From: an uncultured Myxococcales bacterium
GTDB taxonomy: Bacteria; Myxococcota_A; UBA9042
DNA length: 64,000 bases
Assembly: GCA_903842345.1 (NCBI GenBank)
Contig: CAIMLR010000014.1
Span: 248,001-312,000, forward strand
Direction: 5' to 3'
The notes under the pieces are model-generated. The model saw only the letters and a list, made by a program, of their open reading frames with translations, was not told the DNA's origin and made no database searches. The position numbers and the translations under genes were made by a program. Of this stretch, positions 35,491 through 51,875 are shown piece by piece (the stretch's first letter is position 1; every line of letters begins with the position of its first letter).

Positions 35491-35589
35491 GCCGCCCGCG
35501 CGTGCGCACGCCGGGAATACCGGAACCGCGCTCTACGTTTGACCGCTCAGCGCCACGCTTTTGTTGGCGCCCAAGACAGCCGAGGATTC

Positions 35590-36576
35590 ATGCAGGACAT
35601 TCGCTCGCTCAACGAGATGATTCGCCAGGAGTCGCAGTTCGTCGACCAGTTGCTGGCTGAGACCGGCAAGATCGTCGTGGGCCAAACCCACATGATTGAG
35701 GGCCTGCTGATTGGCCTGCTGACCGGCGGCCACGTGCTGCTGGAAGGCGTGCCGGGCCTCGCCAAGACGCTGACGTGCAAGACGCTGGCGCGGGCGCTCT
35801 CCATCAACTTCCAGCGCATCCAGTTCACGCCGGATCTGCTGCCGGCGGACATCCTGGGCACCCAGGTCTACAATCCGAAAGATCAGACCTTCAAGGTCAA
35901 GCGCGGGCCGATCTTCACGAATCTGGTGCTCGCGGATGAAATCAACCGCGCGCCGGCCAAGGTGCAGTCGGCGCTGCTGGAGGCGATGCAGGAACATCAG
36001 GTGACGATCGCCGACGAGACGTACACGCTCGACGAGCCGTTCCTGGTGCTGGCGACGCAGAATCCGATCGAGCAAGAGGGCACGTATCCGCTGCCGGAAG
36101 CACAGGTTGACCGCTTCATGCTCATGGTGAAGGTCACGTACCCGACCCGCGCCGATGAATTGACGATCCTCAACAACGCGACGTCCGGCTACGTGCCGAC
36201 GCTGAATCCAGTGATCGACGGTCCCGGGCTGATGCGGGCGCGCAAGGTCGTGGAGGACATCCTGATCGACGACAAGCTGAAGCAGTACATCGTCGACATC
36301 GTGTTTGCGACGCGCGAGCCCAAGGCGTACGGCTTGGGGGATCTGAGCGAGTTCATCCAATTCGGCGCGAGCCCACGTGCGTCGATCTTCCTGACGCAGG
36401 CGGCCAAGGCCCACGCGTTCCTGCGCCACCGCGCGTTCGTGATTCCGGAGGACATCAAGGCCGTGGGCTTGGACGTGCTGCGGCACCGCGTCATCCTGAC
36501 GTATCAGGCCGAGGCGGAGAACCTGACGAGTGAAGACGTGGTGCAGCGGATCTTCGACCGCGTCGCCGTTCCGTAA
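35590..36576 (+). CDS. moxR: MoxR-family AAA+ ATPase
   Basis: A 328-residue MoxR-type AAA+ ATPase, first gene of a Bat-type operon and thought to act as a chaperone that activates or inserts the VWA-domain partners encoded after it. Walker A is LLEGVPGLAKT (50-60), Walker B is VLADEINRAP (about 115-125), and the MoxR signature ATQNPIEQEGTYPLPEAQVDRFM is complete. The C-terminal lid ends in VGLDVLRHRVILTYQAEAENL. CGAGG lies five bases before the ATG at 35590. An 80-base gap with two inverted repeats separates it from the next gene. Confidence 0.95.
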   Translation: MQDIRSLNEMIRQESQFVDQLLAETGKIVVGQTHMIEGLLIGLLTGGHVLLEGVPGLAKTLTCKTLARALSINFQRIQFTPDLLPADILGTQVYNPKDQTFKVKRGPIFTNLVLADEINRAPAKVQSALLEAMQEHQVTIADETYTLDEPFLVLATQNPIEQEGTYPLPEAQVDRFMLMVKVTYPTRADELTILNNATSGYVPTLNPVIDGPGLMRARKVVEDILIDDKLKQYIVDIVFATREPKAYGLGDLSEFIQFGASPRASIFLTQAAKAHAFLRHRAFVIPEDIKAVGLDVLRHRVILTYQAEAENLTSEDVVQRIFDRVAVP

Positions 36577-36655: not shown

Positions 36656-37546
36656 ATGACATTGGCCCAGCAAGAGAAGTCGATTTCCCAGCGCGTCCGC
36701 GAGATCGAGATCATCGCGCGCCGTCTCGTCAGCAGCACGCTGGCTGGGCAATACCACGCCGTGTTCAAAGGGCGCGGCATGAGCTTTGACTCCGTGCGCG
36801 AATACCAGCCGGGCGACGACATCCGCACCATCGACTGGAATGTCTCGGCGCGCACCGGCGGCATCTTCGTCAAGCAGTACGTGGAGGAGCGCGAGCTGAC
36901 GGTGCTGCTCGTCGTGGACCTTTCCGAGTCGCAGAAATTCGGCAGCAAGGACAAGTCCAAGCGCGAGCTGGCCGCTGAAATCGCAGCAGTTTTGGCGTTT
37001 TCAGCGATTTCCAACAACGACCGCGTCGGCCTCATCCTCTACACGGACCGCATCGAGCGCTACATCCCGCCCAAGAAGGGCCGCGGCCACGTGATGCGCA
37101 TCGTCCAGGAATTGCTGCGGTTCCAGCCCGCCGGCAAAGGCACGCGCACGGACGTCGCGCTGGACTACGTGGCACGCATCGCCCGCAAGCGCGCAGTCGT
37201 CTTTGTGCTTTCCGATTTCCTCGGCGATGGCTATGACCGTTCGCTGGGCGTGCTCGCTGGCCGCCACGACGTCGTGCCGATTGTCACGGCGGACGAAGTC
37301 GACAAGAAGTGGCCGATTCTGGAAGGGCTGTGGCTGCTGGAAGATCCTGAAACGGCGGAGATTGTGCACTTTGACGCGAACAACGCCGCGAGCGTGCAGG
37401 ACCATTGGCGGCAATCGGCAGTGGCGGAGCGCAAGCGCGAGCAGCTGGCGCGCAAATTTGGCATGGAACCCATTCCGGCAACGGTCGGCATGGACTACCT
37501 GAAGAGCCTCGTGGCGTATTTCCGCCGAAGGGCGGCCCGCCAGTGA
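36656..37546 (+). CDS. DUF58 domain protein of the Bat operon
   Basis: A 296-residue DUF58 protein (VWA-like fold), the usual partner of MoxR in Bat operons. The conserved KGRGMSFDSVREYQPGDDIRTIDWNVSARTGG block, typical of DUF58, is at about 38-70. A VWA-like stretch with VVDLSESQKFGS follows, where the MIDAS pattern is D-L-S-E-S. The later FVLSDFLGDGYDRSL fits the family. No membrane segment. It precedes the BatD-like/RDD gene with a TGATG overlap, so translation is coupled. Role inferred from the neighbourhood: part of a MoxR-VWA assembly system. Confidence 0.92.
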   Translation: MTLAQQEKSISQRVREIEIIARRLVSSTLAGQYHAVFKGRGMSFDSVREYQPGDDIRTIDWNVSARTGGIFVKQYVEERELTVLLVVDLSESQKFGSKDKSKRELAAEIAAVLAFSAISNNDRVGLILYTDRIERYIPPKKGRGHVMRIVQELLRFQPAGKGTRTDVALDYVARIARKRAVVFVLSDFLGDGYDRSLGVLAGRHDVVPIVTADEVDKKWPILEGLWLLEDPETAEIVHFDANNAASVQDHWRQSAVAERKREQLARKFGMEPIPATVGMDYLKSLVAYFRRRAARQ

Positions 37547-39144
37547 TGCGAAACCTCATCTTCCTCATCGTTTTCGCCATCGCGACGCCTGTTTGGGCGG
37601 ACGCGCCTGCGCCTTTGCCAGCCGCCGCGAGTCCGACCTCGAATGCCGCGGACGCCGTGAAGGTTCAGGCCAAGCTGTCCACGACGACGCCGACGTTTGG
37701 CGATTCGCTGGAGCTCGTCGCGACGCTGCAGTATCCCAGCAACTACCGCGTGTTTTTTCCCGCGCGCCCCAACCTCCGGCCGCTGCTCGCGGATCCGGCC
37801 AATCCGGGCAAGTCTGAGCGTCAGGAGGCGGGCGGTCAGGTCACGGAGACGTTCCATGTGCCGCTGCTCGTGGTGCGCGCCGGCCTGCTGCGCACGCCGC
37901 CCATCGAGGTGCCCTTCCACATCGTGACGGCGGGCGGCGGTGCCGGCGAGAGCGGTACCGTGACGATTCCGTCGATGAAGATCGTCGTGAAGAGCCAATT
38001 TGCCAACGACAACAACGTGGCGCCGTCGCCGCTCCCGCAGCCGCGGCCGTTGATTGAAGAGAACGTGCCGCTGGAAATCGCCTTGCTCGTCCTGGCGATG
38101 ATGCTGCTGTCCGGCGGGCTGACCGCGCTGGGGCTGAAAGTCTACAAGCACCGCGCGGCGCTGCTGCGGCCCAAGGCGACGGTGCCGCCGCACATCGTGG
38201 CGATTGGCCGACTGACGGACCTGGAGCGTTCTGGCCGGCTGGCCAATGAGACGCCGCGCGTGGTGGTGGCTGAACTCTCTGAGATCCTGCGCGAATACCT
38301 GGGCGGCCGCTTCCGGTTCTACGCGTTGGACATGACGAGCACGGAACTGCTGGAGCGCGTGAAGGCGCTCGACCTCAAGCTCGTGCGCCTGGAGGAACTC
38401 CAGCGGTTTGCCGACACGTCCGATCTGGTGAAATTCGCCGGCCTTCCAGCGACGCCGGAGGAATTGGCGGAACTGCACCTGTTCGTCCAGGAAGTCGTGC
38501 AGAAGACGATGCAGACGGCTGAGGAGCTCGACCGGCTGCGCGCGGCGGAAACGGCGCGGCTTGCGCAACAGAAGAAGCTGCGGCTGCAGGTGATGGCGCC
38601 GACTGCGCTGCGGGTCCGCGCGTTGGCGATTGACCTGTTGGGCGGCTCGCTGGCGACCTGCGCGCTGGCGCTGCTGGCCATGCGGACGGGCCGGCAGGGC
38701 CTCTTTGACGCCGCGTATGTCCTCTGGTTTGTCTGGCTGGCGCTGCGCGACGCGGTGGGCGGATCGTCGCCTGGCAAGGCCATCACGGGCCTGGAGATCG
38801 CGGCGTTTGAAGTCGAGAGCAACGACGCGCGCCGCGCCTGGAACGACGACGCGCCGCCGGAGGACGCCTCGATTCTCATCGCCAAGATGGCGAGCTGGGG
38901 CGCCAAGCTCAAGCGCAACCTGCTGCTGGCCGTGCCGGGCGCGGGCTTTGTCGCGGAGATTTGGACCGCGCTGGCGCTGCCGGAACAGCGGCGGTTTGGC
39001 GACCAGTGGGCCGGAACGCGCGTAATCGACGGTCGCCACGGGATGCGCAAGGGCAAGCCGGCGTGGTGGCCCGCGGTCGTGGTCGTCCTGCTGGCGGCGA
39101 TCCTCCTGATGGCGCCGTTGGTGCTCGGAGGGCGGCCGGTATGA
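37546..39144 (+). CDS. BatD-like periplasmic domain fused to a membrane RDD domain
   Basis: A 532-residue membrane protein. It has a signal peptide (residues 1-18), then an Ig-like BatD-type periplasmic domain (about 30-170, with VQAKLSTTTPTFGDSLELVATLQYPSNYRVFFP). A membrane helix follows (about 183-205), then a cytosolic helical region with leucine-rich YLGGRFRFYALDMTSTELLERV (about 250-330), typical of the gene after DUF58 in Bat operons. Finally comes an RDD domain (about 360-510), recognised by RALAIDLLGG, VGGSSPGKAITGLEI and FGDQWAGTRVID, with three membrane helices. The RDD fusion is uncommon. Start overlaps the DUF58 stop (TGATG), and its stop overlaps the next start (ATGA). Confidence 0.8.
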   Translation: MRNLIFLIVFAIATPVWADAPAPLPAAASPTSNAADAVKVQAKLSTTTPTFGDSLELVATLQYPSNYRVFFPARPNLRPLLADPANPGKSERQEAGGQVTETFHVPLLVVRAGLLRTPPIEVPFHIVTAGGGAGESGTVTIPSMKIVVKSQFANDNNVAPSPLPQPRPLIEENVPLEIALLVLAMMLLSGGLTALGLKVYKHRAALLRPKATVPPHIVAIGRLTDLERSGRLANETPRVVVAELSEILREYLGGRFRFYALDMTSTELLERVKALDLKLVRLEELQRFADTSDLVKFAGLPATPEELAELHLFVQEVVQKTMQTAEELDRLRAAETARLAQQKKLRLQVMAPTALRVRALAIDLLGGSLATCALALLAMRTGRQGLFDAAYVLWFVWLALRDAVGGSSPGKAITGLEIAAFEVESNDARRAWNDDAPPEDASILIAKMASWGAKLKRNLLLAVPGAGFVAEIWTALALPEQRRFGDQWAGTRVIDGRHGMRKGKPAWWPAVVVVLLAAILLMAPLVLGGRPV

Positions 39145-40280
39145 ACACCTGGAGCTTTGAACATCCCTGGTTCCTGCTGAGCGTCCTCGCGGTCGCCGCC
39201 ATCGCCTGGGCCCGGACGCGCGCGCGGCCCGCAACCGTGCAGGTCTCCAGCGTGGCGATCCTCAAGCAGGTCAAGCCAACGCTGCGCACGCGGCTGCACA
39301 CCCTGCCCGATTGGCTGCGCGGCTTGGCGCTGTGCCTGCTCGTCGTGGCGCTGGCGCGGCCGCAACAAGTCGATACGGAGGAGCTGAGCGCGGAAGGCCT
39401 GGACATCATGATCGCGCTCGACCTCTCGGGCTCCATGAACGCGATCGACATGTCCGACGAGAACATCCAGAAGCTGCACGACGACGGCCGTGAACCGGAC
39501 AATCGCTTTGAGGCGGCGCGGAAGATCCTGAAGGACTTCATCCGCGGCCGGAAATCGGATCGCATCGGGCTTGTGATCTTCGGCTCGGAAGCCTACCTGC
39601 GCTTTCCGCCGACGCTCGACTACATCCGCCTGCTCAACGCGCTCGACCAGCTGGTGCTCGACGACGGCCGGCGCACCAACAACGACCGGCAGAATTGCCA
39701 CAACGACTGCACAATCAACGGCGGCGGCACGGCGATCGGCGACGCGTTGAACCGCGCGTGGATGCGGCTGGACACGTCGCTGGACAAGAACAAGCAGAAG
39801 TCCAAGTCGCGCTCGCGGATGCTGATTCTCATCACCGATGGCAAGCAGGAAGGCGGCAAGCTGGACCCGCTCACGGTGCCCAAATACGTCGCGTCGCTGC
39901 CGGAGAAGGACCGCGTGAAGATCTTCACGTTCCAGGTCGGCTCGGGCAAGGAAACGCGGCTGCCGGCGTATGACCCGATGCGCGGCGCGCCGATTGTCGA
40001 TCGCTTTGGCCACACCGTGTATCAGCGCCCGGAGCGGCCGTTCCCGACGGATCCGGAGCTGTTGGCGCAGATTGCCCAGTTGACCGGCGGACATTTCTAC
40101 GACAGCTACGATGCCAAGAAGTTTGCAAACGACTTCAAGGACTTGGAAAAGACCACGTTCAAGACCAAGGTGCGCACGCACCGCCGCGAGCTGTTCTGGC
40201 CGTGGCTTCTCGTCGGTCTTGGCCTGCTCGCGGTGGAAGTCCTGCTGCGGCGGACGTGGCTGCGGACGATTCCGGGATAG
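39141..40280 (+). CDS. batA: BatA-type VWA-domain membrane protein
   Basis: A 379-residue inner-membrane protein with a periplasmic VWA domain held between two helices (about 8-25 and 60-75, with another near the C-terminus at 352-372). The MIDAS site is complete: DLSGS at 94-98, with the later Thr and Asp in TDGKQEGGK. The family signature is N-terminal WSFEHPWFLL. Bat proteins are linked to aerotolerance and envelope integrity in Bacteroides and Leptospira. Start ATG at 39141 overlaps the previous stop. It should pair with the BatB-like protein that follows. Confidence 0.9.
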   Translation: MNTWSFEHPWFLLSVLAVAAIAWARTRARPATVQVSSVAILKQVKPTLRTRLHTLPDWLRGLALCLLVVALARPQQVDTEELSAEGLDIMIALDLSGSMNAIDMSDENIQKLHDDGREPDNRFEAARKILKDFIRGRKSDRIGLVIFGSEAYLRFPPTLDYIRLLNALDQLVLDDGRRTNNDRQNCHNDCTINGGGTAIGDALNRAWMRLDTSLDKNKQKSKSRSRMLILITDGKQEGGKLDPLTVPKYVASLPEKDRVKIFTFQVGSGKETRLPAYDPMRGAPIVDRFGHTVYQRPERPFPTDPELLAQIAQLTGGHFYDSYDAKKFANDFKDLEKTTFKTKVRTHRRELFWPWLLVGLGLLAVEVLLRRTWLRTIPG

Positions 40281-40307: not shown

Positions 40308-43300
40308 ATGATGTCGGACACCCTCACTTTTGCCAATCCTCAGTTGCTCTGGCTGCTCGCGCCGGTGCTGCTGCTGGCGGCATGGGCGACGGCGCAGCAC
40401 TTCTCAACGCGCAAGATCCTGGAACAGCTGCTCTCGGTGCCGATGATGGCGCGTTTGGCGGCAAGCTGGTCGCCGCAGCGCTCCGTGGCGCGCATCGTGC
40501 TCTGGACGCTGGCGGCGCTGCTGCTGGTGCTGGCGGCGGCGCGGCCGCGCTACGGCCTGCGGGAGACGGAAGTGAGCAACGCCGGGATCGACATCGCCGT
40601 CGTGGTGGACGCGTCCAAGTCCATGCTCGCCAAGGACGTCGTGCCCAATCGCCTCCAAGGCACCGTCCTGGAAATCTCGGCGCTGCTGGACAAGCTCGCG
40701 GGCGGCCGTGTGGCGCTGATTCCGTTCGCCGGCATCCCGTTTGTGCAGTGCCCGCTGACGGCCGATCACGACGTCATTCGCATGTACATGGCCGACCTGA
40801 AGCCGGAGGACTTGCCGGTGGGCGGGACCAATATCGGCCGGGCGATTGGCCTGGCGGTCGAGACGCTGACGGGCGAACGCGAGAAGGCCGAGGCGGAGTC
40901 CCGCGACAACCTGATGGCGCAGTTCCGCGGCTCCAAGAACAAGGCGATCGTGCTGTTCAGCGACGGCGAGGACCATGAAGGCGCAGCCGTGGAGGCGGCA
41001 CAGAAGGCGGCGGAGAAAGGCGTGCGCATCTTCACCGTCGGCGTCGGCACCGCGTCGGGCAATCCGGTGCCGATTCTCGGGCAGGACGGCTCGTCGGTCG
41101 GCTCGCAAAAGGACGAGCAAGGCAACCTGGTCTTCTCCGCGCTCAACATGGACCTGCTGGACAAGATCGCGACCGCGACGGGCGGCAAGTCGTTCCACTA
41201 CGACCGGCAGTCGATTGCGCAGCAGGTGTTCCTGAGCCTGGACGCGCTGGAGAAGGCTGAATACCAGGCGCAGTTCCAGCAGTTGGGCGAGGACCGCTTT
41301 CAGTACCTGCTGGGTCCCGCGCTGCTGCTCTTGCTGATCGAGTGGCTGCTGGGCTCCCGCAAGCGCATCCGCAAGCTGGCGCCGGCGCTGGCGTTGCTTG
41401 CGCTCGCGCTGCCAATGCCCGCCCACGCGCTGCCGTCGTGGCTGCAGCGCGAGAATCCCGATGTGCGCGATGGCCGCGAGCGGCTGGCGGAGAACAAGGC
41501 GGCGGAGGCCGTCAAGGCGTTCCAGACCGCGCAGATGACGCGGCCGGAGCACGCGCTGTTGTGGTACGGCCTGGGCTTGGCGCAGTCGGCGCTGGGTGCG
41601 CGGCAAGATGCGGTGACAAGCTTGTCCCGCGCGCTGGGCGCGGTGAAAGAGCGGGATGCCGCGCTGGAGGCGGACATCCACTATGCGCTGGGGACAACGC
41701 AGCTGCAGTGGGGCCTGACGCTGGAAAAAACCGCGCCCAAGCCTGCCAAGAAGGACAAGGACGCCGAGGAGAAGCCAGCGGAGCAGCCGGAAGCCGGCGA
41801 GGATCCGCTGCCGCACTACCGCGAGGCGGTGAAATCGCTGGAGACGGCGCTGCTGCTGGACCCCAAGCGGACGGAGACGCGCCGCAACCTGGAACTGGCG
41901 CGGCTCTCCGCGTTTCCGCCGTGCCGCTCGCGGGACAAGACCAATGAGCCCAACGACACGCCGGAGCAGGCGGCGCCGCTGGCGTTCGCGGCGGACCAAC
42001 GCGAGCAGGTGCTGGATTTGCGCGCGTGCCCGGAGGATCGCGACATCTTCCGCGTGGAATTGCAGCCGGGCGATCGGTTCAGCGCGACGTTGAAGACCAA
42101 GGCGGACACCAGCCCGGCGGCGGAACCCGATGACCCGCAAGGCGGCGCGACGCCGCCCAAGCTGGGCGTATGGCTGATTGGCCCGGACGGGAAGACCGTG
42201 CTGCGTGGCGCGCCGGAAGGGCAGGCGCCGCTGGACGCGGTGGATTTGGGCAAGGTGGAGCAGGCGACGCCGGTGATGGTCGACGTGCGCAACATCGCGG
42301 AAGTGGAGACGACGTACGACCTGACGCTGAAGCTGCTGCCGGCGTGCGCGCGGATTGAGGATCGCTACGAGCCCAACGACACGTTCGCGACCGCGCGGGC
42401 GGTGACGCTGGGCGAGCCGCTGAAAGGTCGGCTGTGCCCGCTGAACGACGACAACTTCGCGGTGGATCTGCAGCCCGGCCAGGGTCTGATGGTCAAGGCG
42501 AAGACCAAGGTGGACATCGGCGCGGATGCCGTGGTGCTGACGGTGCTCGGTCCTGACGGGCAGCCAGTGGCGGTGAGCCGCAAGAGCCAGGACGGCCAAG
42601 CGGTGCGGTTCGCCCGCGCGCTGGTGGGCGGGCGCTACGTGCTGCAGGTGCGCGGCGGACTGGATACGGAAGCGGATTACGAGGCGGAAGTCGCCGTGCT
42701 GCCGCCGTGCCAGCTGCGCGACGACGCGTACGAGGACAACGACCAGGCGGCGCAGAGCAACCCGCTCGCGACGGAATCGCTGCAGGCGCCGCTGGAAAAC
42801 CTGCAGCTGTGCCCGGGCGACGACGACTGGTACGCGGTGGAGTTGAAGGCAGGCGAGAGCCTGTTTGTCGATCTGGTGGCAGACGTGAAGGAGCTGCCGG
42901 ACGCGCAGGATCTCGCGGGCGCGCTGACCGTGGAAGTGTGGGACGACAAGGGCCAGATTTGGGGGCAGGCGATCGGCGGGCCGGGCGGTGAAACCGTCTC
43001 GCGCACGGCCGCGGTGCTGGCGCCGCCTGCGGGCACCTACCGTGTGCGCGTGACGGGTGGAGGCGTGGCCCCGCCGCATTTCCCGCTGCCGACCCTGCCG
43101 CCGGGTTCAGTCCAGATGGGGCCGGCGCCGCAGCCGCCGCCGGGGCCGAGCATGCCGCAGCCGCCGGGCATCCGCGCGGTGCCCATGCCGCAGGGCCAGC
43201 CGGGCGCGCCACCGATGCCGACAGGCCAGATGCCGGGACAGCCGCCGGCCGCAGCGCCGACGCCCATTGCGCACGTGATGCTGCCGGCCAATCTGCCCGC

Positions 43301-44033
43301 GCCCATCGTCGACCAACGCGCCGCGCGGCTGGACCTGCCGTACACGCTGAAGCTGCGCATCCTGCCGCCCTGCCCCAAAGGCAACGACGAGTATGAGCCG
43401 AACGACAGCGCGGCGGCGGCCAAGCCGCTGGAAATGGACGGCGAAAAGCTGATGCGGATCTGCAAAGGCGATCAGGATTGGCTGGCGATCAACCAGAAGG
43501 CCGCGCAGAACCTGCAGATTACCGCGCGCTACGATCTGTCCCACGGGCCGGTGGAGCTGGAGCTCTTTGACGAAAGCGGCAAGACGAGCCTGGCAAAAGG
43601 TCAGCGGCAGGGCGCGGAGGGCAAGAAGTCCGTGGCGCCGATTGACGACTCGCCAGCGGCGCGCAAAGGCCGGACCGCGGTGACGGGCGTGGCGATCGAG
43701 GGCGACAAGAAGGACCGCGTGATCAAGCTGCGCGCGTGGGCGGACAAGGACGTGGAGAATTTCTACGTGCTGCAGATCCAGGAACCGCCGCCGCCGTCTG
43801 ACAAGGGTGACGAGAAGAAAGAGCAGGACGAGAAGGACAAGGACGACGAAAAGAAGGATCAGGACAAGAAAGACCAGGAGAAGAAAGACGAGGAGAAGAA
43901 GGAGCCGCCGCCCGACCAGCAGGCCCTGGAGCAGCAGATGCAGCGCGCGGACCACAATCCGACCAACCTGGAAGCGGAGGAAGCGCTGCGGAAGTCGCCT
44001 TTCAAGAACCAGACGCCGACGAAGGACTGGTAA
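40308..44033 (+). CDS. BatB-type VWA protein fused to TPR and four PPC-like domains
   Basis: A 1241-residue fusion. Residues 1-350 form a BatB-like unit: two N-terminal helices, a VWA domain with MIDAS D101-A-S103-K-S105 and a Thr in GGTNIGRA, and a closing helix at about 327-343. A second hydrophobic segment (about 356-372), which may insert or act as an internal signal, is followed by a TPR block (about 385-520) equivalent to BatC. Then come four domains marked by EPNDT/YEPNDT/YEDNDQA/YEPNDSA, the opening of PPC (pre-peptidase C-terminal) folds. The third contains a Pro/Met-rich insert. The tail is Lys/Asp/Glu-rich. The PPC repeats suggest binding of extracellular surface or wall components. 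I have not seen this combination described. Confidence 0.85.
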   Translation: MMSDTLTFANPQLLWLLAPVLLLAAWATAQHFSTRKILEQLLSVPMMARLAASWSPQRSVARIVLWTLAALLLVLAAARPRYGLRETEVSNAGIDIAVVVDASKSMLAKDVVPNRLQGTVLEISALLDKLAGGRVALIPFAGIPFVQCPLTADHDVIRMYMADLKPEDLPVGGTNIGRAIGLAVETLTGEREKAEAESRDNLMAQFRGSKNKAIVLFSDGEDHEGAAVEAAQKAAEKGVRIFTVGVGTASGNPVPILGQDGSSVGSQKDEQGNLVFSALNMDLLDKIATATGGKSFHYDRQSIAQQVFLSLDALEKAEYQAQFQQLGEDRFQYLLGPALLLLLIEWLLGSRKRIRKLAPALALLALALPMPAHALPSWLQRENPDVRDGRERLAENKAAEAVKAFQTAQMTRPEHALLWYGLGLAQSALGARQDAVTSLSRALGAVKERDAALEADIHYALGTTQLQWGLTLEKTAPKPAKKDKDAEEKPAEQPEAGEDPLPHYREAVKSLETALLLDPKRTETRRNLELARLSAFPPCRSRDKTNEPNDTPEQAAPLAFAADQREQVLDLRACPEDRDIFRVELQPGDRFSATLKTKADTSPAAEPDDPQGGATPPKLGVWLIGPDGKTVLRGAPEGQAPLDAVDLGKVEQATPVMVDVRNIAEVETTYDLTLKLLPACARIEDRYEPNDTFATARAVTLGEPLKGRLCPLNDDNFAVDLQPGQGLMVKAKTKVDIGADAVVLTVLGPDGQPVAVSRKSQDGQAVRFARALVGGRYVLQVRGGLDTEADYEAEVAVLPPCQLRDDAYEDNDQAAQSNPLATESLQAPLENLQLCPGDDDWYAVELKAGESLFVDLVADVKELPDAQDLAGALTVEVWDDKGQIWGQAIGGPGGETVSRTAAVLAPPAGTYRVRVTGGGVAPPHFPLPTLPPGSVQMGPAPQPPPGPSMPQPPGIRAVPMPQGQPGAPPMPTGQMPGQPPAAAPTPIAHVMLPANLPAPIVDQRAARLDLPYTLKLRILPPCPKGNDEYEPNDSAAAAKPLEMDGEKLMRICKGDQDWLAINQKAAQNLQITARYDLSHGPVELELFDESGKTSLAKGQRQGAEGKKSVAPIDDSPAARKGRTAVTGVAIEGDKKDRVIKLRAWADKDVENFYVLQIQEPPPPSDKGDEKKEQDEKDKDDEKKDQDKKDQEKKDEEKKEPPPDQQALEQQMQRADHNPTNLEAEEALRKSPFKNQTPTKDW

Positions 44034-44036
44034 GCC

Positions 44037-46667
44037 GTGCCGCGTATGCGCCAGTTCACCCGTGCGGCCCTCGTGCTGCTCCTGACCACCCTGCCCGCGC
44101 TGGCTTGGGCGGCGGCGCGCGTGACGCTGGAGGTCAATACCCAAAAGTTGTCGCTGGACGACGAACTGCGCCTCACCGTGCGGGCGAGCGGCACGTTTGA
44201 CGAGATGACCGAGCCGGAGATCGAAGGCTGGACAGTGCAGCGGACGGGCCAGCAGCAGCAATTGAGCGTGATCGGTGGGTCGATGCAGCGGACGGAGACG
44301 CTGATGTACACGGCGACGCCGTCGCGGGCGGGGTCGTTCCGCATTGGCCCGGTCGTGGTCCTGGATGGCAGCAACGTCGTGGCGAAGTCGGACACCGTGA
44401 CCGTGCAGGTCATGGCGCCGGTGGAGACGGAACGCGTTGAGAAGCCGGAAGTCGCGACGGATCTGAACGCGTACGTCGGGCAACCGTATTTTGTCCACCC
44501 GACGCTGTCGACCAATCAGCCGTTCGTCGGGCAGCCGTTCGTCGTGTCGTACGCGCTGTATTGGACGCGGCAGCGGGCGACCGCGGGCATCCGGCCGTTG
44601 GCGGAGCCGAACTATGGCAAGTTGACGCCGGAGAGCCTGCGCGACGACGCCATGGCGCGCGCGGAGTCGATCGTGCTCTCCGGCCAGCCGTACCAGCGCC
44701 AGACGACCCACCGCGACCTCCTGGTGGCATCGACGCCGGGACCGGTGCGGCTCGAGGGGCCGCGCTATCGCATCGAGACGCTGAATTCCCGCGCGCAGAA
44801 GGTGAGCGCGTCGACAATCGACTTGCAGGTGCGGCCAATCCCGACGCAGGGAAGGCCCGAGGGGTTCGTCGACGGCAACGTGGGACGGCTGCACATCGCC
44901 GCGACGCTGCAGACCGCGGGCGCGACCGGTGCCCAGCGCGGCGGGACGCTGGAAGTGCAAACGGGCGAGCGGCTGCTGTTCACCGTGACGGTCAGCGGCG
45001 ATGGCAATCTGCTGGGCTTGAAGCCGCTGACGTTGCCGGCGCTGGACGGAATGACCGCGGAGATGCTGACGAAGCGCGACGACGCCGGCGTGACGCGCAA
45101 CGCCAACGGCGTGCAGGGCACCCGCACGTGGCAGTGGATGCTGAGCTTTGCGCGACCGGGCCACGTGGAACTGCCGGCGATCGCCTGGGCGGCGTTTGAC
45201 CCGTATCAGGAGCGGTTTGACGCGCAGTCGCTCGGGCCGTTTGCCCTGGAAGTGCGCGGTCAGGCGCTGGCGGCGGCGGCGACAGCCACGACGGAAGGGA
45301 CGGTTCCCGGCGCGCCCGCGGCGATCCATGCGCGCGAGGGCCTGCGTGCGAATGCCGCGGAGGCCAAGCTGGCAGCGAGCGATGGCCGGTCCTGGACGCA
45401 GTCGTGGCTGTTCCACGTGTTGCTGCTGTTGCCGTGGCTGGCGGCGCTGGCGACGTTGGCGGTCTACGGCGCAAGGCGGCGCAAGGCGCGCGCGGCTCCC
45501 GAGCAAATGCGGCGCGCGGCGTTGCCGGAAGCGCAAGCGCGCCTGCAGCAGGCTGCCGCGACCGAGCCGAGCCAAGGGTATGGTCAGGCGCGGCAGGTCG
45601 TGACGGAGTACCTGGCGCAAGTTGCATTGCTGGAAATTGGCGGCCTGACGGAGCAAGGCGTCGTGGAGGAATTGCAGCGCCGCGGCGTGCCACAGGACGT
45701 GGCGCGGGAACTGGCGGCGGATCTGCAGCACTGCGACTTTGGCCGCTTTGCCCCCGCGGGCGATCGCCAGAGCGATTTGGTGCAGACGACCGGCCGGCTG
45801 GCTGAGCGCGTGGCGCAAATCGACGCCGTGCTGCTGCGTTCCGCGCTGCCGGTGGTGGCGAAGTCGGCGGTGGTGCTGTTGGCGCTGCTCGGCGCGGCGC
45901 TGGTTCCGCACAACTGTCAGGCCGCGACGCTGGACGAGACGTTCACCACCGCCAATCAGGCCTATGCGCAGCACGACTACGTCAAGGCCCGCGACCGCTA
46001 TGAGTCGCTCCTCAGCCACGAGCTGCCAGTCGCGGCGGTTCACTACAATCTGGGGAACACGCTGGTGCAACTCGGCCAGCTCGGCCGCGCGGTGGCGCAG
46101 TATCAGGTCGCGCTGCAACTGCGGCCCGATGCGCCGCTCAAAGCCGACATCGCGGCCAACCTTCAGGCGGTGCGCGCGGAACTGACGGATCGCGCGCGAC
46201 GGCACCACGCGACGCTGCACGTGTTTGACGAGTCGGCTTCGCTGGACGTGATCTTTGCGCAGTCCGCGCCTCGTGGTTTCCTGGGCGCGCTGGCGCTGCT
46301 GGCCGGCATGCTGGCGAGCGGCCTTTTGGCGTGGCGACTGCTGGGCCGTGGCGCCACGTCGCATCCGCGGCGGACCACGGCGCTGTTGGCGATGGCGGGC
46401 TCCGTGCACCTGCTGGCGGTTGGCGCGCTCCTGTGGGCGAACGCAGAACGCCAGGCGCTGGTGCTGGCCGTCGTCGTGGAAGAGGACGCGCAACTGACGA
46501 CGTGCCAAGGCCAATCCGACGTCGACGATCTGGGCCTGCCCGAGGGCCTGGAAGTGCACAAGCTGGCAGAGATGGCGGATGGCCGGGTCCAGGTGCGCCT
46601 GCCCAATGGCCGGCAGGGCTGCTTGCCCGCCGCGGCGCTGGAAGTGGAAGCAGCCGTCGCCCGTTGA
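44037..46667 (+). CDS. BatD-BatE-type fusion (BatD domain, TPR, SH3-like)
   Basis: An 876-residue membrane protein that joins two Bat functions. A signal peptide (about 1-26) leads into a long periplasmic BatD region (about 27-450: VTLEVNTQKLSLDDELRLTVRASGTFDEMTEPEIEGW, QPYFVHPTLSTNQPFVGQPFVVSYALYW). Helices follow at about 460-480 and 603-620, then TPR units (about 625-715: AVHYNLGNTLVQLGQLGRAVAQYQVALQLRPDAP). Two helices (about 743-760 and 780-798) come before a C-terminal SH3-like domain (VHKLAEMADGRVQVRLPNGRQGCLP). BatE normally has the TPR and SH3 parts. A GTG at 44037 is used; the ATG nine bases later would also fit. Three bases separate it from the previous stop. Confidence 0.85.
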   Translation: MPRMRQFTRAALVLLLTTLPALAWAAARVTLEVNTQKLSLDDELRLTVRASGTFDEMTEPEIEGWTVQRTGQQQQLSVIGGSMQRTETLMYTATPSRAGSFRIGPVVVLDGSNVVAKSDTVTVQVMAPVETERVEKPEVATDLNAYVGQPYFVHPTLSTNQPFVGQPFVVSYALYWTRQRATAGIRPLAEPNYGKLTPESLRDDAMARAESIVLSGQPYQRQTTHRDLLVASTPGPVRLEGPRYRIETLNSRAQKVSASTIDLQVRPIPTQGRPEGFVDGNVGRLHIAATLQTAGATGAQRGGTLEVQTGERLLFTVTVSGDGNLLGLKPLTLPALDGMTAEMLTKRDDAGVTRNANGVQGTRTWQWMLSFARPGHVELPAIAWAAFDPYQERFDAQSLGPFALEVRGQALAAAATATTEGTVPGAPAAIHAREGLRANAAEAKLAASDGRSWTQSWLFHVLLLLPWLAALATLAVYGARRRKARAAPEQMRRAALPEAQARLQQAAATEPSQGYGQARQVVTEYLAQVALLEIGGLTEQGVVEELQRRGVPQDVARELAADLQHCDFGRFAPAGDRQSDLVQTTGRLAERVAQIDAVLLRSALPVVAKSAVVLLALLGAALVPHNCQAATLDETFTTANQAYAQHDYVKARDRYESLLSHELPVAAVHYNLGNTLVQLGQLGRAVAQYQVALQLRPDAPLKADIAANLQAVRAELTDRARRHHATLHVFDESASLDVIFAQSAPRGFLGALALLAGMLASGLLAWRLLGRGATSHPRRTTALLAMAGSVHLLAVGALLWANAERQALVLAVVVEEDAQLTTCQGQSDVDDLGLPEGLEVHKLAEMADGRVQVRLPNGRQGCLPAAALEVEAAVAR

Positions 46668-46763: not shown

Positions 46764-48743
46764 ATGCGAGACTTGGTGGCCCAGCGGAAGCGCGCGTGGC
46801 GGGTGGTGCTGCTGGCGTTTAGCGCCGTGACGCTTGTGGCGGGCTGCAACCGGGACGCGGAGACGGCCAAGCCCCATGCGCCGGGGCATGACCAGGCGAC
46901 GGCTGCCAGCTCGGCCGTGAAGCCCGCCGCGCCGCGCCCGCCCGCCGACCCGCGGTTGCAGCGCTGGCAGGGCGTGCTGGCGCCGGCAAAGTCGTGGCGG
47001 CCCAACGTGGCGACCGATGTGCTGCTGCTGGCCAACGCGCCCGGCCTGGATGCTGAGTCCGTGGATGCCGCGCTGCGACCGCTCGCCGCCGCGCTGCGGA
47101 CGTTGCCGGGCGTCGAACTCGTCGTGACGCGCGCGCGGCCCGGTGAAGCGCGCGCCGTTGTGCGGTTTGCCGCGACCGCCGCCAAAGGCTCAGCCGCTGT
47201 GGATGCGGTGCTGGACGCCTGGCAAGCCGCACCGCCTTCCGGGATGGCAGAACCGGTCGCGGAAGCCATTGCCCGCGGGGCCCGGGCGATTGCGGCGCTG
47301 GAGATGGTGGCGATGGGTGGCCGCCTGGAGGCGACGCGCTATGCGGATGCGCACGCGAATGCGCTCCAGCAGGTCTCCAAGTTCGCGGTGCGCACGCACC
47401 TGACCGGTGCGGTCCGGCCACTGCTGGCCCTGCGCGTGATGCCGGTCGCGCTGGCGGCCAACGGCATCGCGCTGAATGACGTTGTGGAGGCGGCGCGGGG
47501 CTGGCTGGCCAAAACCGTTGCCATGGACCCGCTGCCCGCCCTGGACGAAGCGCGCAATGTGCTGGCGGAAATCAAGCTGAAACGGCATTGGACGGCGAAC
47601 GGCGAGGCGCTGCCCGCGGTGCCCATGGACCGCCTCGTCGACGTTTCGGTGGAACAAGGCGAGCCGACGCGGGAAGCGCGCAATGGCCATTTGCCGACGA
47701 CGTTCTGGATGGTCGACGCGCCGGTGACCGGCGAGGCCACTGACATTGACAGCGGCCTGCGCACGGTCGCGCAGGAGAGCAAGAGCGTGTTCCGGCCCAC
47801 GGTCCAGTCGCTCGGCGCGGCCTACCGGTTCATCCTGAGCGTGCCAGAGGGCAAGGAACCGGAGACCCAGGACGACCTGAGCAAGCGGCTGCAGGCGATT
47901 CGCGCCGCGAATGAGTCGCTTGTCGCGGTCAATGCGATCGCCGGGCAGGATGGCGTGCCGGAGGCGCTGGACGTGGACGCGCGCAACGGCCGCCGGTGGA
48001 CCGTGTGGGTGTCGATCGCGACCGCCGACACCGGTTCCGTGATCTTCGCGGTGCGCGAGGCGCTGCTGGCGGGCGGCTGGGACGTCCATGTGCTGTCCGA
48101 CCAGACCGATACCGCGCTTTCCTGGGTGCTGGACGCGTGGGGCACGGGCGGCGCGCTGATTTCCGCGGAGGATGCCGGCGCGCTCGGGCCAAACGTCGGC
48201 AGCTTGGCGCAGCGCGCGCTTTCCGGACGCGAGAAGGCCGGGATGCGGCAGGGTCCGCAGCCGGGTCTCGCACCGCTGGCGTACCGAAAAATCGACCCGA
48301 AACAGCTGCATGCCACCCAGCTTGCGCCGACGGCCGCGCAGCGCTTTGTTGCCGTCGTGGGCGGGCTGCAACCGCTGGGCTGGTGGCATGACACGCCGGT
48401 CTGGCTGGGCTTGCCGGCGGGTGACGGCGCGGCCACGGTGGGTCAGCTGCCGCTTGAGTGGCAGGGCACCGCGGGGACGGGGCCGAACCACGCGTGGCTG
48501 GCGAACGACGTGTTGCGCGTTGCCGACCCGGCGCCGGTGATCGAGCGCGTGCGCGTGAACGGCCGCCCCGCGCTGTGGGCCGTGCCGGAGGACTTTGCCG
48601 ACGCGCCGGCGGCGGTCGCCGCGAGCTTCTGGCGGCTTGTGGAGGCGACCGTTGAGATGCGGACGGGCATGCGTGTGGAATCGCTGGACCTGCGGGAGCG
48701 GCCGTTGGTCGCCGAGAGCCCGAGCGAGCCTCCCGCGCCGTAG
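46764..48743 (+). CDS. lipoprotein made of RND-type porter domains, without membrane domain
   Basis: A 659-residue lipoprotein (signal with lipobox LVAGC, Cys 28) that appears to contain both porter halves of an RND efflux subunit but no transmembrane helices. N-half: NAPGLDAESVDAALRPLAAALRTLPGVELV (91-120) matches the PN1 opening of AcrB/CusA-type pumps (APGADAEEVE..V..PLE.AL..LPGV), and VMPVALAANGIALNDVVEAARG (225-246) the PN2/DN segment. VPMDRLVDVSVEQGEP (286-301) matches the conserved VPL..LA.V. C-half: DPKQLHATQLAPTAAQRFVA (511-530) and RVADPAPVIERVRVNGRPALWAV (585-607) repeat the pattern. AAGGGAGG lies four bases before the ATG at 46764. It follows the Bat operon by 96 bases. It may be a soluble decoy, adaptor or substrate-binding relative. 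Confidence 0.65.
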   Translation: MRDLVAQRKRAWRVVLLAFSAVTLVAGCNRDAETAKPHAPGHDQATAASSAVKPAAPRPPADPRLQRWQGVLAPAKSWRPNVATDVLLLANAPGLDAESVDAALRPLAAALRTLPGVELVVTRARPGEARAVVRFAATAAKGSAAVDAVLDAWQAAPPSGMAEPVAEAIARGARAIAALEMVAMGGRLEATRYADAHANALQQVSKFAVRTHLTGAVRPLLALRVMPVALAANGIALNDVVEAARGWLAKTVAMDPLPALDEARNVLAEIKLKRHWTANGEALPAVPMDRLVDVSVEQGEPTREARNGHLPTTFWMVDAPVTGEATDIDSGLRTVAQESKSVFRPTVQSLGAAYRFILSVPEGKEPETQDDLSKRLQAIRAANESLVAVNAIAGQDGVPEALDVDARNGRRWTVWVSIATADTGSVIFAVREALLAGGWDVHVLSDQTDTALSWVLDAWGTGGALISAEDAGALGPNVGSLAQRALSGREKAGMRQGPQPGLAPLAYRKIDPKQLHATQLAPTAAQRFVAVVGGLQPLGWWHDTPVWLGLPAGDGAATVGQLPLEWQGTAGTGPNHAWLANDVLRVADPAPVIERVRVNGRPALWAVPEDFADAPAAVAASFWRLVEATVEMRTGMRVESLDLRERPLVAESPSEPPAP

Positions 48744-48746
48744 CCC

Positions 48747-51700
48747 TCACATCCCCGGGTCGACGTAGACTTCGACGTACTCGTAGACAAAGTTGTTGGT
48801 CCCAGCCGCGTCGGCGAATTCGCTGATGTACGGGCCGTTGACCTTGCCGGGCGCCTCGCCCGCACCGGGAGTGGCGTTGGTCTTGACGTTGTAGTCGCTG
48901 GCAGTCCAGACGGCCGCGACGCCGGCGCCCTGCGTCGGATCCACGCGGTTGAAGATGAACTTGCCACTCGCCGTCATCGGCACCGTCGGTCCGTCAACGA
49001 CCGTGCCGTCCGCGCGCTTGAGCGTGTAGCTTTCGTCACCGTTGATCTGCGGGCACGCCGTCGTCGCGCTGGCGAGCGCCGCCGACTGCACGAACGTCAC
49101 GTTCGCCGCAAGCGTCACGCCCCAAAAAGCCTCAAAGTCAGCCTTGGCTGACGCGCGGGACAGAATCACGTAGCCGCCGCTCGGGACGGTCGTACCCGCC
49201 GGGAACGTGTACGACTGCGTGCTCAGCGTCTGCTCGATTTTCCACCCGCTGATGTCGATGGCGCTCGCGCATTTGCCGCTGACGGCACCCGCGGCGCTGC
49301 AGTTCGCCGCGCTGCCGGCGCCCTGGAGCGCGTAGGTTGCGCGGCATTGCAGGCTGTTGCCCGTCGTCGCGCCGGTCACGCCATTGGCGGGCATGGCCGC
49401 GCAAGCGGTCTGGCAATCCGTCGCGCTCGCGTACGCGCCCGGGCAGCTGTGGAGCATCAAGTCGCAGTAGCCGTCGCACTGGGAGCCACAAACGCCGCCG
49501 CCGCTTGGGCCCGCCGGGCCGCAGAACGTCACGGGCGCCAAAGCGGCGGATGTTGCCTGCGTGTACCGGCACGCCGCGGTGTCGCCGGCGCTGTCGCCCA
49601 CCTTGCCCACGGCCCACGCTGCGTTGGTCTTGCAGGTGGCCTGGCACGTCGCGAGGTCGGCGTACTGCTGGTTGCCGCCGTTGCAGTTGGCGGTGACGGC
49701 TGCGCAGTACAAGTCGCACACCGCGGCACAGGTCTTGCCGTCGCCGATGTAGCCGGGGTTGCAGGCGCAGACGTAGCTGCCTTCCGTGTTGCCGCACGTC
49801 GCGTTGCCGTCGCAAATCGCGGTGCCTGCGGTGCACTCGTTGGTGTCCGTGCAGGTCTTGCCGGTGCCGCTGTACCCGGGGTTGCAGGTGCAACTGAAGC
49901 TGCCCTCGCTGTTGGCGCACTTGGCGTGGCTGTCGCAGCCGGCGGTGCCCAGCGCGCATTCGTCCACGTCGGCGCAGCTCAAGCCTGACCCGCTCCAGCC
50001 GCTCTTGCACGTGCAGTCGTACCCACCGTCGCTGTTCAGGCAATCGGCGTGGACGTCGCACGCGTTCAGCGCGGGGTCGGCGCACTCGTTGACGTCCGCG
50101 CAGCTCGTGCCGCTCCCCTGCCAGCCCGCGTTGCAGTTGCACGTGAACCCGCCGATGTTGTTGGTGCAGGTCGCGTTGCTGTCGCAGTTGGCGGTCTTGG
50201 TCGCGCACTCGTCGACGTCCGCGCACTGTTGGCCGCTGCCGCCGTAGCCCGGCAGGCAGGTGCAGGTAAAGCCGCCGTCGGTGTTGGCGCACGTCGCGAG
50301 CTTGCTGCAATTGTCGGTCTTGTCCTTGCATTCGTTGACGTCGGTGCACTTGAAACCGTTGCCGGTGAAGCCGCCGACGCAGCTACACGAGAAGCTGCCC
50401 AGGCTGTTGACGCACTTGGCGTTGACGTCGCACGGGTTGCCCGCGCACTCGTCGATGTCCTGGCACGTCTTGCCGTCGCCGAGCCAGCCGCCCTGGCACG
50501 TGCACGGCGGCGTCAACGTGCCGTCGTCCTTGCAGGTCGCGTGGGCGTCGCAGGTCCACCACGGCGTGCCGCACACGGGCGCGCCGACGATCGCGTAGCT
50601 CTGCTTCGTCACCGTCGCCGCGCCGTCGCTGTCCACCGCCGTCACGCTCAGCTGCAACTCCCCCGGCACCAGGTGCTGGCCGTTGACGAGCACCGTCGGC
50701 ACGGACAGCGTCGCCGTCTCCCCGATGAGCTGGCCCTGCCACGTCCAGGCGAAGGTCGTCGTCAACGGGTCGCCGTCCGGGTCGCTGCTCGCCGTCAACA
50801 CGGTCGCCGTCACGGTCCCGGTCAAATCGACCGTCGCCGGCTCCGCGCTCAGGACCACGGCGGTCGGCGCGCTGTTGGCAATCACGATCTCCGCCATGCC
50901 AAGCGGACCCGCCGCGTGACCATCGGACGCCACCGCCGTAACCGTCCACTTTTGGCCCTTCTTCAGCCACTGGGCCGGCACGGTCGGGGTCGTGAACGTC
51001 GTCGGCTGGCCGTCCAGCAACCACGTCCAGGTCCACGTCAGCGCCGTGCCTTCCGGGTCGATCGACGGCTGCGCGAGGCTCGCCTGCAAATCCGTCTGCA
51101 CCGTCGCGGGCGCGGGCGCTATCGCCAGCTGCGGCGTGCCCGTCGGCGCCAGATTGCCCACGATCTGCGCGGTCTTCTGCGCCACGAGCACGCCGTCCTG
51201 CCAGATCCCCAGCGTCACGGTCTGGAGCCCCGCTTGGACAACCGTCGCGAGCATCGTGTGATTCAGCGGCAGCGCGTCAAACGCCTCGGTCGCCGTCGCA
51301 CCCGCGCCCAGCGCCACGGTCACGGCCCACTGCCCCGCGGGCTGCGGTGCTGTCACCGCAAAACTGACCGCCAGCACATCACCCACGTTCACGATGGCGC
51401 CCTCGGCAGGCGCGGTCAGCGTGACGGCAGTGTTCAGGCCAAGCGGCGTCGGTCCAGCGTCCACGTCGGGCGCAGCGGCGTCCGCATCAGACCCATCAAC
51501 TGCGGCGTCCACAGCCGGCGCGTCGGCATCCGCGGCGTCCGCAACGGCGTCGTCGAGTCCGGCATCCGTTGCCGCTGCGTCCTCGTCGGTCGCGTCGCCA
51601 TCGTCGGCATCGACGCCCGCATCTGCAGCGGTATCCGTCGCGGCATCGACCGGCACATCCAGCGCGGCGGCGTCCGTTGCGGCGTCCGCGGCAGCAGCAT

Positions 51701-51875
51701 CCGTGCCATCCTTGCCGGACGCATCCTCCGCGGCGCCATCGGCGGTCACGTCCAAGGGCGGTGCGGCGTCAGCCGTCGCGTCGGTTGTCCCGCCACCATT
51801 GGATGTTGCCGTTGGCCCACCGCAAGCAGCAAACCACATCAGGGGCATGACAATCCAAACGGAACGACTTCGCAT
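48747..51875 (-). CDS. lipoprotein with seven EGF-like modules and a lamin-tail-like C-terminus
   Basis: A 1042-residue surface lipoprotein: lipobox WFAAC (Cys 18), an Asp/Ala-rich linker to about 142 and two or three PKD/Ig-like domains (about 148-430; [11 protein letters not shown].., [31 protein letters not shown]). Seven EGF-like modules span about 435-717, six cysteines each, most opening with a D-V/I-N/D-E-C calcium-binding motif. A Cys-rich region follows, then a lamin-tail-domain-like end (about 860-1042) with DISGWKIE..., GYVILSR and [12 protein letters not shown]. This mix is typical of Myxococcota outer-surface proteins and suggests calcium-stabilised adhesion or contact functions, which are inference. 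Convergent with the RND-like gene (gap of three bases). Confidence 0.85.
49725..50573 (-). repeat. array of seven EGF-like coding repeats
   Basis: Seven tandem 36-41-codon modules with six cysteines each (residues about 435-717 of the protein), six of them with the pattern D-x-N/D-E-C...C...C...C-x-C...C. The first is a divergent module with no D-x-N/D-E-C opening. DNA identity between modules is high enough for misalignment or copy-number change. Confidence 0.85.

Follow-up and report, generated by a model that had tools for sequence, protein, structure and literature searches.

The gene directly downstream of batD in the window (the 64,000-nucleotide stretch of myxococcal DNA analyzed here) encodes a lipoprotein that descends from an RND pump of the HAE-1/HME type. 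The periplasmic loops of the pump form one soluble chain, and the whole membrane domain has been lost (Table 1). This porter lipoprotein fails to qualify as an RND permease, lacking both the helices and the proton relay, yet it is clearly homologous to part of one. We consider it almost certain that the homology covers both periplasmic loops, PN1-PN2/DN followed by PC1-PC2/DC, in a membrane-less architecture. Because its parent family is known and the fold has been kept, the protein is not categorically new. RND porters are regarded as inseparable from proton-driven membrane domains, and the only other membrane-less RND porter that we know of was made in the laboratory for a study of drug binding. 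Our searches of the open-licence literature turned up no naturally occurring RND porter that lacks a membrane domain. A first-pass annotation of this DNA had proposed an RND porter domain made as a stand-alone lipoprotein, a proposal supported by the alignment to AcrB, the AcrBper fold, and the lipobox.

Table 1. Coordinates of the porter lipoprotein gene, its parts, and the upstream Bat genes in the window
Feature	Position	Strand	Basis
MoxR-type AAA ATPase, Bat operon	35539..36576	+	Pfam AAA_3, 3e-67
DUF58 protein, Bat operon	36656..37546	+	Pfam DUF58, 8e-76
batA	39141..40280	+	Pfam BatA, 6.6e-12, and VWA_2, 2.9e-14, on ORF from 38961
batB-like VWA protein fused to TPR and pre-peptidase-like repeats	40308..44033	+	Pfam VWA, 1.4e-13
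batD with TPR, directly upstream of porter gene	44037..46667	+	Pfam BatD, 1.4e-16
RND-porter-like lipoprotein gene	46764..48743	+	659 aa plus stop; ATG start, TAG stop; ORF and translation
Signal peptide and lipobox, residues 1-28 (Cys28)	46764..46847	+	Cys28 invariant in 16/16; AlphaFold2 helix 3-25
Disordered Pro/Ala-rich tether, residues 29-75	46848..46988	+	pLDDT < 50 at 26-60; length varies among relatives
PN1-like subdomain, residues ~83-155	47010..47228	+	hhalign to AcrB 40-115; RND_permease_2 over 90-244
PN2/DN-like part, residues ~164-345, DN loop shortened	47253..47798	+	hhalign to AcrB 127-319
Junction in place of pump TM2-TM7, residues ~343-348	47790..47807	+	hhalign mapping
PC1-like subdomain, residues ~350-445	47811..48098	+	hhalign, C half versus RND C-porter, E 1e-4; full alignment, 2.5e-13
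Conserved G-x-D-G-x-P segment (AcrB switch loop counterpart), residues 390-403	47931..47972	+	Aligned to AcrB 610-618
PC2/DC-like part, residues ~460-640	48141..48683	+	hhalign to AcrB ~680-870; AlphaFold2 and Foldseek

Homology to the RND periplasmic loops

Scanned alone, the window protein had a sole family match, NCBIfam RND_permease_2 (NF033617), over residues 90 to 244 with an E value of 0.0055, far below the curated cutoff. Our full-length set comprised 16 members, the window protein included, with 25 to 65% identity to it. Pfam ACR_tran (PF00873) matched 10 of these 16 (best E value, 2.1e-9), and RND_permease_2 matched 9 (best E value, 8.6e-5). The window's own draft genome (G000; 5.8 Mb in 50 contigs) encodes at least 10 full RND pumps. 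Profile-profile comparison with eight of these pumps placed the N-terminal half (residues ~77 to 347) on the first periplasmic loop with an E value of 4e-11. With the halves compared separately against the same eight pumps, the N half reached an E value of 3.9e-12 and the C half, matched to the second loop, one of 1.1e-4.

We also prepared a membrane-excised target by cutting the membrane regions from an alignment of E. coli AcrB with the own-genome pumps and compared the family profile with it by hhalign. This gave one collinear alignment of 520 columns spanning residues 75 to 624 (probability, 98%; E value, 2.5e-13), although identity with AcrB and the pumps was only ~13%. Control alignments to AcrB, using reversed profiles on either side or the unrelated lipoprotein 2 family (see below), had probabilities below 1%, which rules out a chance resemblance to RND. 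At the level of motifs, NAPGLDAESVDAALRPL of the window protein corresponds to AcrB PN1, ALAANGIALNDVVEA to AcrB NKFQLTPVDVITA, VPMDRLVDV...GEP to AcrB VLLRDVAKIELGGENY, KIDPKQLHATQLAPTAAQ to AcrB KIDIDQEKAQALGVSIND, and ERVRVNGRPALW to AcrB PRLERYNGLPSM. The first-pass annotation had read the motif order of an RND half twice over. Both halves are real and the motifs lie where it placed them, but the second set represents the C-terminal loop (PC2/DC), not a repeat.

When the family profile served as the query, matches outside the family fell almost entirely in long frames of pump size and covered PN1-PN2; a few weak N-terminal matches fell in short frames. A sequence-profile search of the PDB returned designed ankyrin repeats on top (E value, 5e-6), which we rejected as spurious since they arose from one 24-residue stretch repeated four times; the next matches were CusA at 0.025. 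A single-sequence phmmer search of the PDB yielded only antibody noise. Outside RND, the single PD module is common (PMC8277102). The RND identity is instead based on the whole collinear set of subdomains together with sequence homology.

The AlphaFold2 model, built from the 16-sequence alignment, had a mean pLDDT of 85 and a pTM of 0.85, with disorder confined to the tether (residues 26 to 60) and the last residues. The predicted structure contains the PN1/PN2/PC1/PC2 porter fold plus the DN and DC insertions, the DN loop being reduced. In a Foldseek search of the PDB with this model, the first 16 matches were all AcrBper (E values, 5e-24 to 3e-22), followed by CusA (about 1e-20) and by MexB-type, CmeB, and AcrB entries. 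The first-pass annotation had let its reading stand or fall with this fold, and the prediction agrees with it.

In AcrBper, both periplasmic loops of AcrB have been fused in the laboratory; the product is soluble and trimeric and binds drugs without the membrane domain (PMC8617272). As the best structural match, AcrBper (from E. coli AcrB; PDB 5EN5, 7B8R, and others) shares with the porter lipoprotein the order PN1-PN2/DN plus PC1-PC2/DC and the membrane-less state. However, AcrBper is man-made and unlipidated, whereas the porter lipoprotein is natural, carries a lipobox, is ~13% identical, and has a shorter DN loop as well as conserved G-x-D-G-x-P and W-T-V-W motifs of its own. The TM-score over the whole chain was moderate (about 0.5 to 0.6); therefore, the arrangement of the subdomains may differ from that in RND structures. 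In AcrB, the DN loop has a long hairpin that links protomers (PMC8277102). AcrB residues 220 to 222, 225 to 229, and 235 to 242 of this loop have no counterpart in the hhalign alignment, and a loop reduced in this way argues against an AcrB-type interlock of protomers. The mapping sets the junction of the halves at residues ~339 to 348, where F343-x-P345 aligns on AcrB F563-L-P565.

The HAE-1/HME RND permeases (AcrB, MexB, and CusA; PF00873), whose periplasmic loops are homologous to the porter lipoprotein, are ~1,040 residues long compared to ~660 here and differ in having TM1 to TM12. None of the 16 members has these twelve transmembrane helices. The AcrB proton relay residues D407, D408, K940, and R971 sit in TM4, TM10, and TM11 (PMC8277102), and the segments that hold them are absent from the porter lipoprotein. 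With no membrane helices, and hence no proton relay, the porter lipoprotein cannot pump, as had been argued at first pass for a detached copy on its own.

Lipid anchor, distribution, and selection

The lipobox of the window protein reads LVAG-C28, at the cysteine named in the first-pass annotation, and a lipobox is likewise found in each of the 16 full-length copies. Together with the signal peptide and the +1 Cys, this predicts a bacterial lipoprotein; the Pfam LPAM_1 model matched the window protein only below its cutoff. By Kyte-Doolittle hydropathy (19-residue window), no membrane helix was evident after the signal peptide in any of the 16 full-length members, which confirms another early claim. 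Beyond residue 60, the highest mean was 1.64 in the window protein and at most 1.84 in any relative. In Myxococcus, Lys at +2 sorts a lipoprotein to the inner membrane and Ala at +7 makes it extracellular (PMC3222651). With Asn at +2 and Thr at +7, the window protein would go to the outer membrane by default under these rules, and Lys at +2 in 3 of 16 relatives blurs which membrane anchors the family. AcrA-type adaptor lipoproteins are similar in being lipid-anchored and periplasmic and in their efflux context, but their fold is unrelated, and no adaptor family matched in any family scan.

We searched 53 relatives at the protein level and the 52 genomes of the class with a profile. Of the 22 genomes in the window's taxonomic family, 18 carried the gene, 2 of them as fragments. 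Other families of the class had none among these 52 genomes, and no further members emerged when the search was widened to 379 genomes of the phylum. A single-protein search placed a near relative in a metagenome-assembled genome, "uncultured Myxococcales bacterium" (L076, CAIYBN010000100.1). Among congeners, dN/dS was 0.24 to 0.31 (0.31 for G000 versus G004), indicating purifying selection.

These data refute a decaying RND pump pseudogene or an assembly artifact, to which we give practically no credence. The missing membrane domain is the sole point in its favor, while the architecture and lipobox are shared by 16 relatives down to 25% identity, the frames are intact, and selection persists. 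A sequencing error that left the membrane domain in another frame had been named at first pass as a way for the reading to fail. It is not a sequencing error, because relatives at 25 to 65% identity are equally membrane-less. The shared architecture and the purifying selection likewise rule out a frameshifted or broken pump.

Genomic neighborhood

A complete Bat operon lies upstream in the window and encodes MoxR, DUF58, a protein of unknown family, BatA, a BatB-like VWA-TPR protein, and BatD. At 1,241 residues, the BatB-like protein is extended; it carries TPR and repeats of a pre-peptidase-like domain and ends in a charged tail. The batD stop at 46667 is followed by the porter gene ATG at 46764, so the gene does sit right after the Bat operon, as had been noted. 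This arrangement recurs with batD directly 5' in 11 of the 14 loci with a readable upstream side, in several genera. In the three exceptions (G010, G012, and G021), the porter gene lies beside the genes for lipoprotein 2 and FadL. One further genome (G008) has Bat and no porter gene. What the porter gene shares with the Bat operon (MoxR, DUF58, BatA, BatB, and BatD) is genomic vicinity, often immediate; to our knowledge, the RND porter fold occurs in no described Bat component.

On the other side, a gene for a second lipoprotein, lipoprotein 2, follows the porter gene in 15 of 17 loci (in G015, it was assigned by position and start motif only). A FadL/TodX-type outer-membrane barrel gene comes after lipoprotein 2 in nearly all of the 15, and three barrels that we tested matched PF03349 with E values of 5e-12 to 7e-11. 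At least seven loci have a 4-nucleotide NTGA overlap between the porter stop and the lipoprotein 2 start. Such a stop/start overlap is a usual sign of co-translation. The FadL/TodX channel (PF03349), two genes downstream in most relatives, is a beta barrel and thus a possible partner, not a homologue. Lipoprotein 2 (L031:8322-9458, minus strand, and relatives) has ~375 residues with five invariant cysteines, one of which is the lipid Cys, and is predicted to be all-helical (pLDDT, 82). It gives no hint of function, because nothing in Pfam matched it and no PDB structure matched significantly.

Neither the window's genome (G000) nor G004 has lipoprotein 2 or the matching barrel. The pair looks precisely lost in G000, because the next gene there is the one that follows the barrel in G002. 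Since both genomes keep the porter gene, a FadL partnership is not obligatory. The reverse case is G008, where Bat, lipoprotein 2, and the barrel are kept and the porter gene is lost; about 1 kb without a match lies in its place between batD and lipoprotein 2 (L111:7202-11997). Elsewhere in the class, other families have the lipoprotein 2/FadL pair with no porter gene or Bat alongside. A QueD/6-pyruvoyl-tetrahydropterin synthase-like gene ("FGSAHFL..G..EELHGHNY") lies near the pair in several genomes of those families (L113 to L117). The window itself also encodes, at 48747-51875 on the minus strand, a predicted lipoprotein that combines some seven EGF/calcium-binding EGF modules with a lamin-tail domain at its C terminus, an unusual make-up for bacteria.

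ORF sequences and selected Pfam scans revealed no gene of RND, adaptor, or TolC type beside the porter gene in any locus read. The absence of adaptor and outer-membrane-factor genes nearby further separates these loci from those of HAE-1/HME permeases. The survey of homologues for Bat or RND genes, proposed at first pass, thus returned the former and not the latter.

Possible function of the porter lipoprotein

In the 16-member alignment, G394, D396, G397, and P399 are invariant in 16 of 16 (G394-x-D396-G397-x-P399), as are D85, R134, G172, R174, R355, W412, W415, W439, D449, and P498. R171-R174 aligns with AcrB S134-L137 around F136, and W412-W415 aligns with AcrB 627-630 beside F628; the aromatics of the AcrB pocket are not conserved as such. 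For AcrB, we used deep-pocket, switch-loop, and access-pocket positions that we take to be the established ones. Deep-pocket/switch-loop columns were more conserved than the rest (mean, 0.64 versus 0.54; permutation p of 0.004, with three site sets tried), while access-pocket columns showed no significant difference. This preferential conservation of the binding-cleft columns is suggestive only, because the sites are presumed, three sets were tried, and an alignment at 13% identity is uncertain.

We propose that the porter lipoprotein may act as a passive, lipid-tethered binding protein or scaffold in the periplasm. Its PN2/PC1 cleft, which is most like the AcrB deep binding pocket plus switch loop, would bind a hydrophobic or amphiphilic molecule. 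Within the periplasm, the protein would then hold this ligand or hand it on, the likeliest source or recipient being the FadL/TodX-type outer-membrane channel. The gene for this channel is, with that of lipoprotein 2, probably co-translated with the porter gene in most cases. The Bat complex would act as an additional partner, the sole one remaining in the window's own genome. A carrier or scaffold is suggested because the substrate-binding part has been kept while the proton relay is gone. We regard it as the likeliest and simplest mechanism, and as quite possible if short of probable, that this is a passive tethered porter that binds hydrophobic ligands and serves a FadL-type channel or the Bat complex. 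Somewhat more tentatively, an RND head without its motor may have been reused as a lipid-anchored carrier on a path with the FadL-type channel, lipoprotein 2, and possibly the Bat complex. Of the roles listed at first pass, a substrate-binding scaffold or a lipoprotein relay is the better option, because the conserved neighbors are Bat, lipoprotein 2, and FadL and not RND. A decoy role and docking on an RND trimer found no support, with no RND, adaptor, or TolC-type gene adjoining in the loci read.

The porter lipoprotein could instead be mainly a periplasm-facing subunit or client of Bat. In that case, it would cooperate with BatD/BatB (VWA and TPR proteins) and MoxR in the assembly of envelope proteins or in stress, its porter fold serving as a scaffold that binds proteins and not a small molecule. 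The adjacency to batD in several genera speaks for this, as does the retention of the gene beside Bat in G000 and G004, under continued purifying selection, after lipoprotein 2 and FadL were lost. We nevertheless find it rather doubtful, given that G010, G012, and G021 have the gene with lipoprotein 2 and FadL away from batD, that G008 has Bat without it, and that Bat function is itself unsettled. Deletion of bat in Leptospira biflexa gave no growth or stress phenotype (PMC3557215).

Two other readings would have the porter lipoprotein work as an oligomer or within one. It is improbable that it forms an AcrBper-like trimeric passive conduit between an inner-membrane partner and the FadL-type barrel: AcrBper does trimerize without membrane helices (PMC8617272), the funnel parts are partly kept, and a FadL-type neighbor is present, but the DN loop is reduced and the cluster has no inner-membrane pump. 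It seems very unlikely that the porter lipoprotein docks on one of the cell's own canonical RND pumps and, as a decoy or a regulatory subunit, replaces or blocks a protomer. The many full pumps in the genome and the retention of both porter halves would permit it, but pump, adaptor, and TolC-type genes are absent beside every locus read, the loop that locks protomers is largely missing, and identity with the pumps is low.

A natural, conserved membrane-less porter would show the porter fold doing useful passive work and would offer a soluble natural system for studying ligand binding in porter clefts. It would also give an entry into two poorly understood neighbors, the Bat operon and the FadL-type barrels of Myxococcota. 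If the proposed carrier role is true, the porter lipoprotein would be a new kind of envelope transport component, an RND porter without a proton-driven membrane domain.
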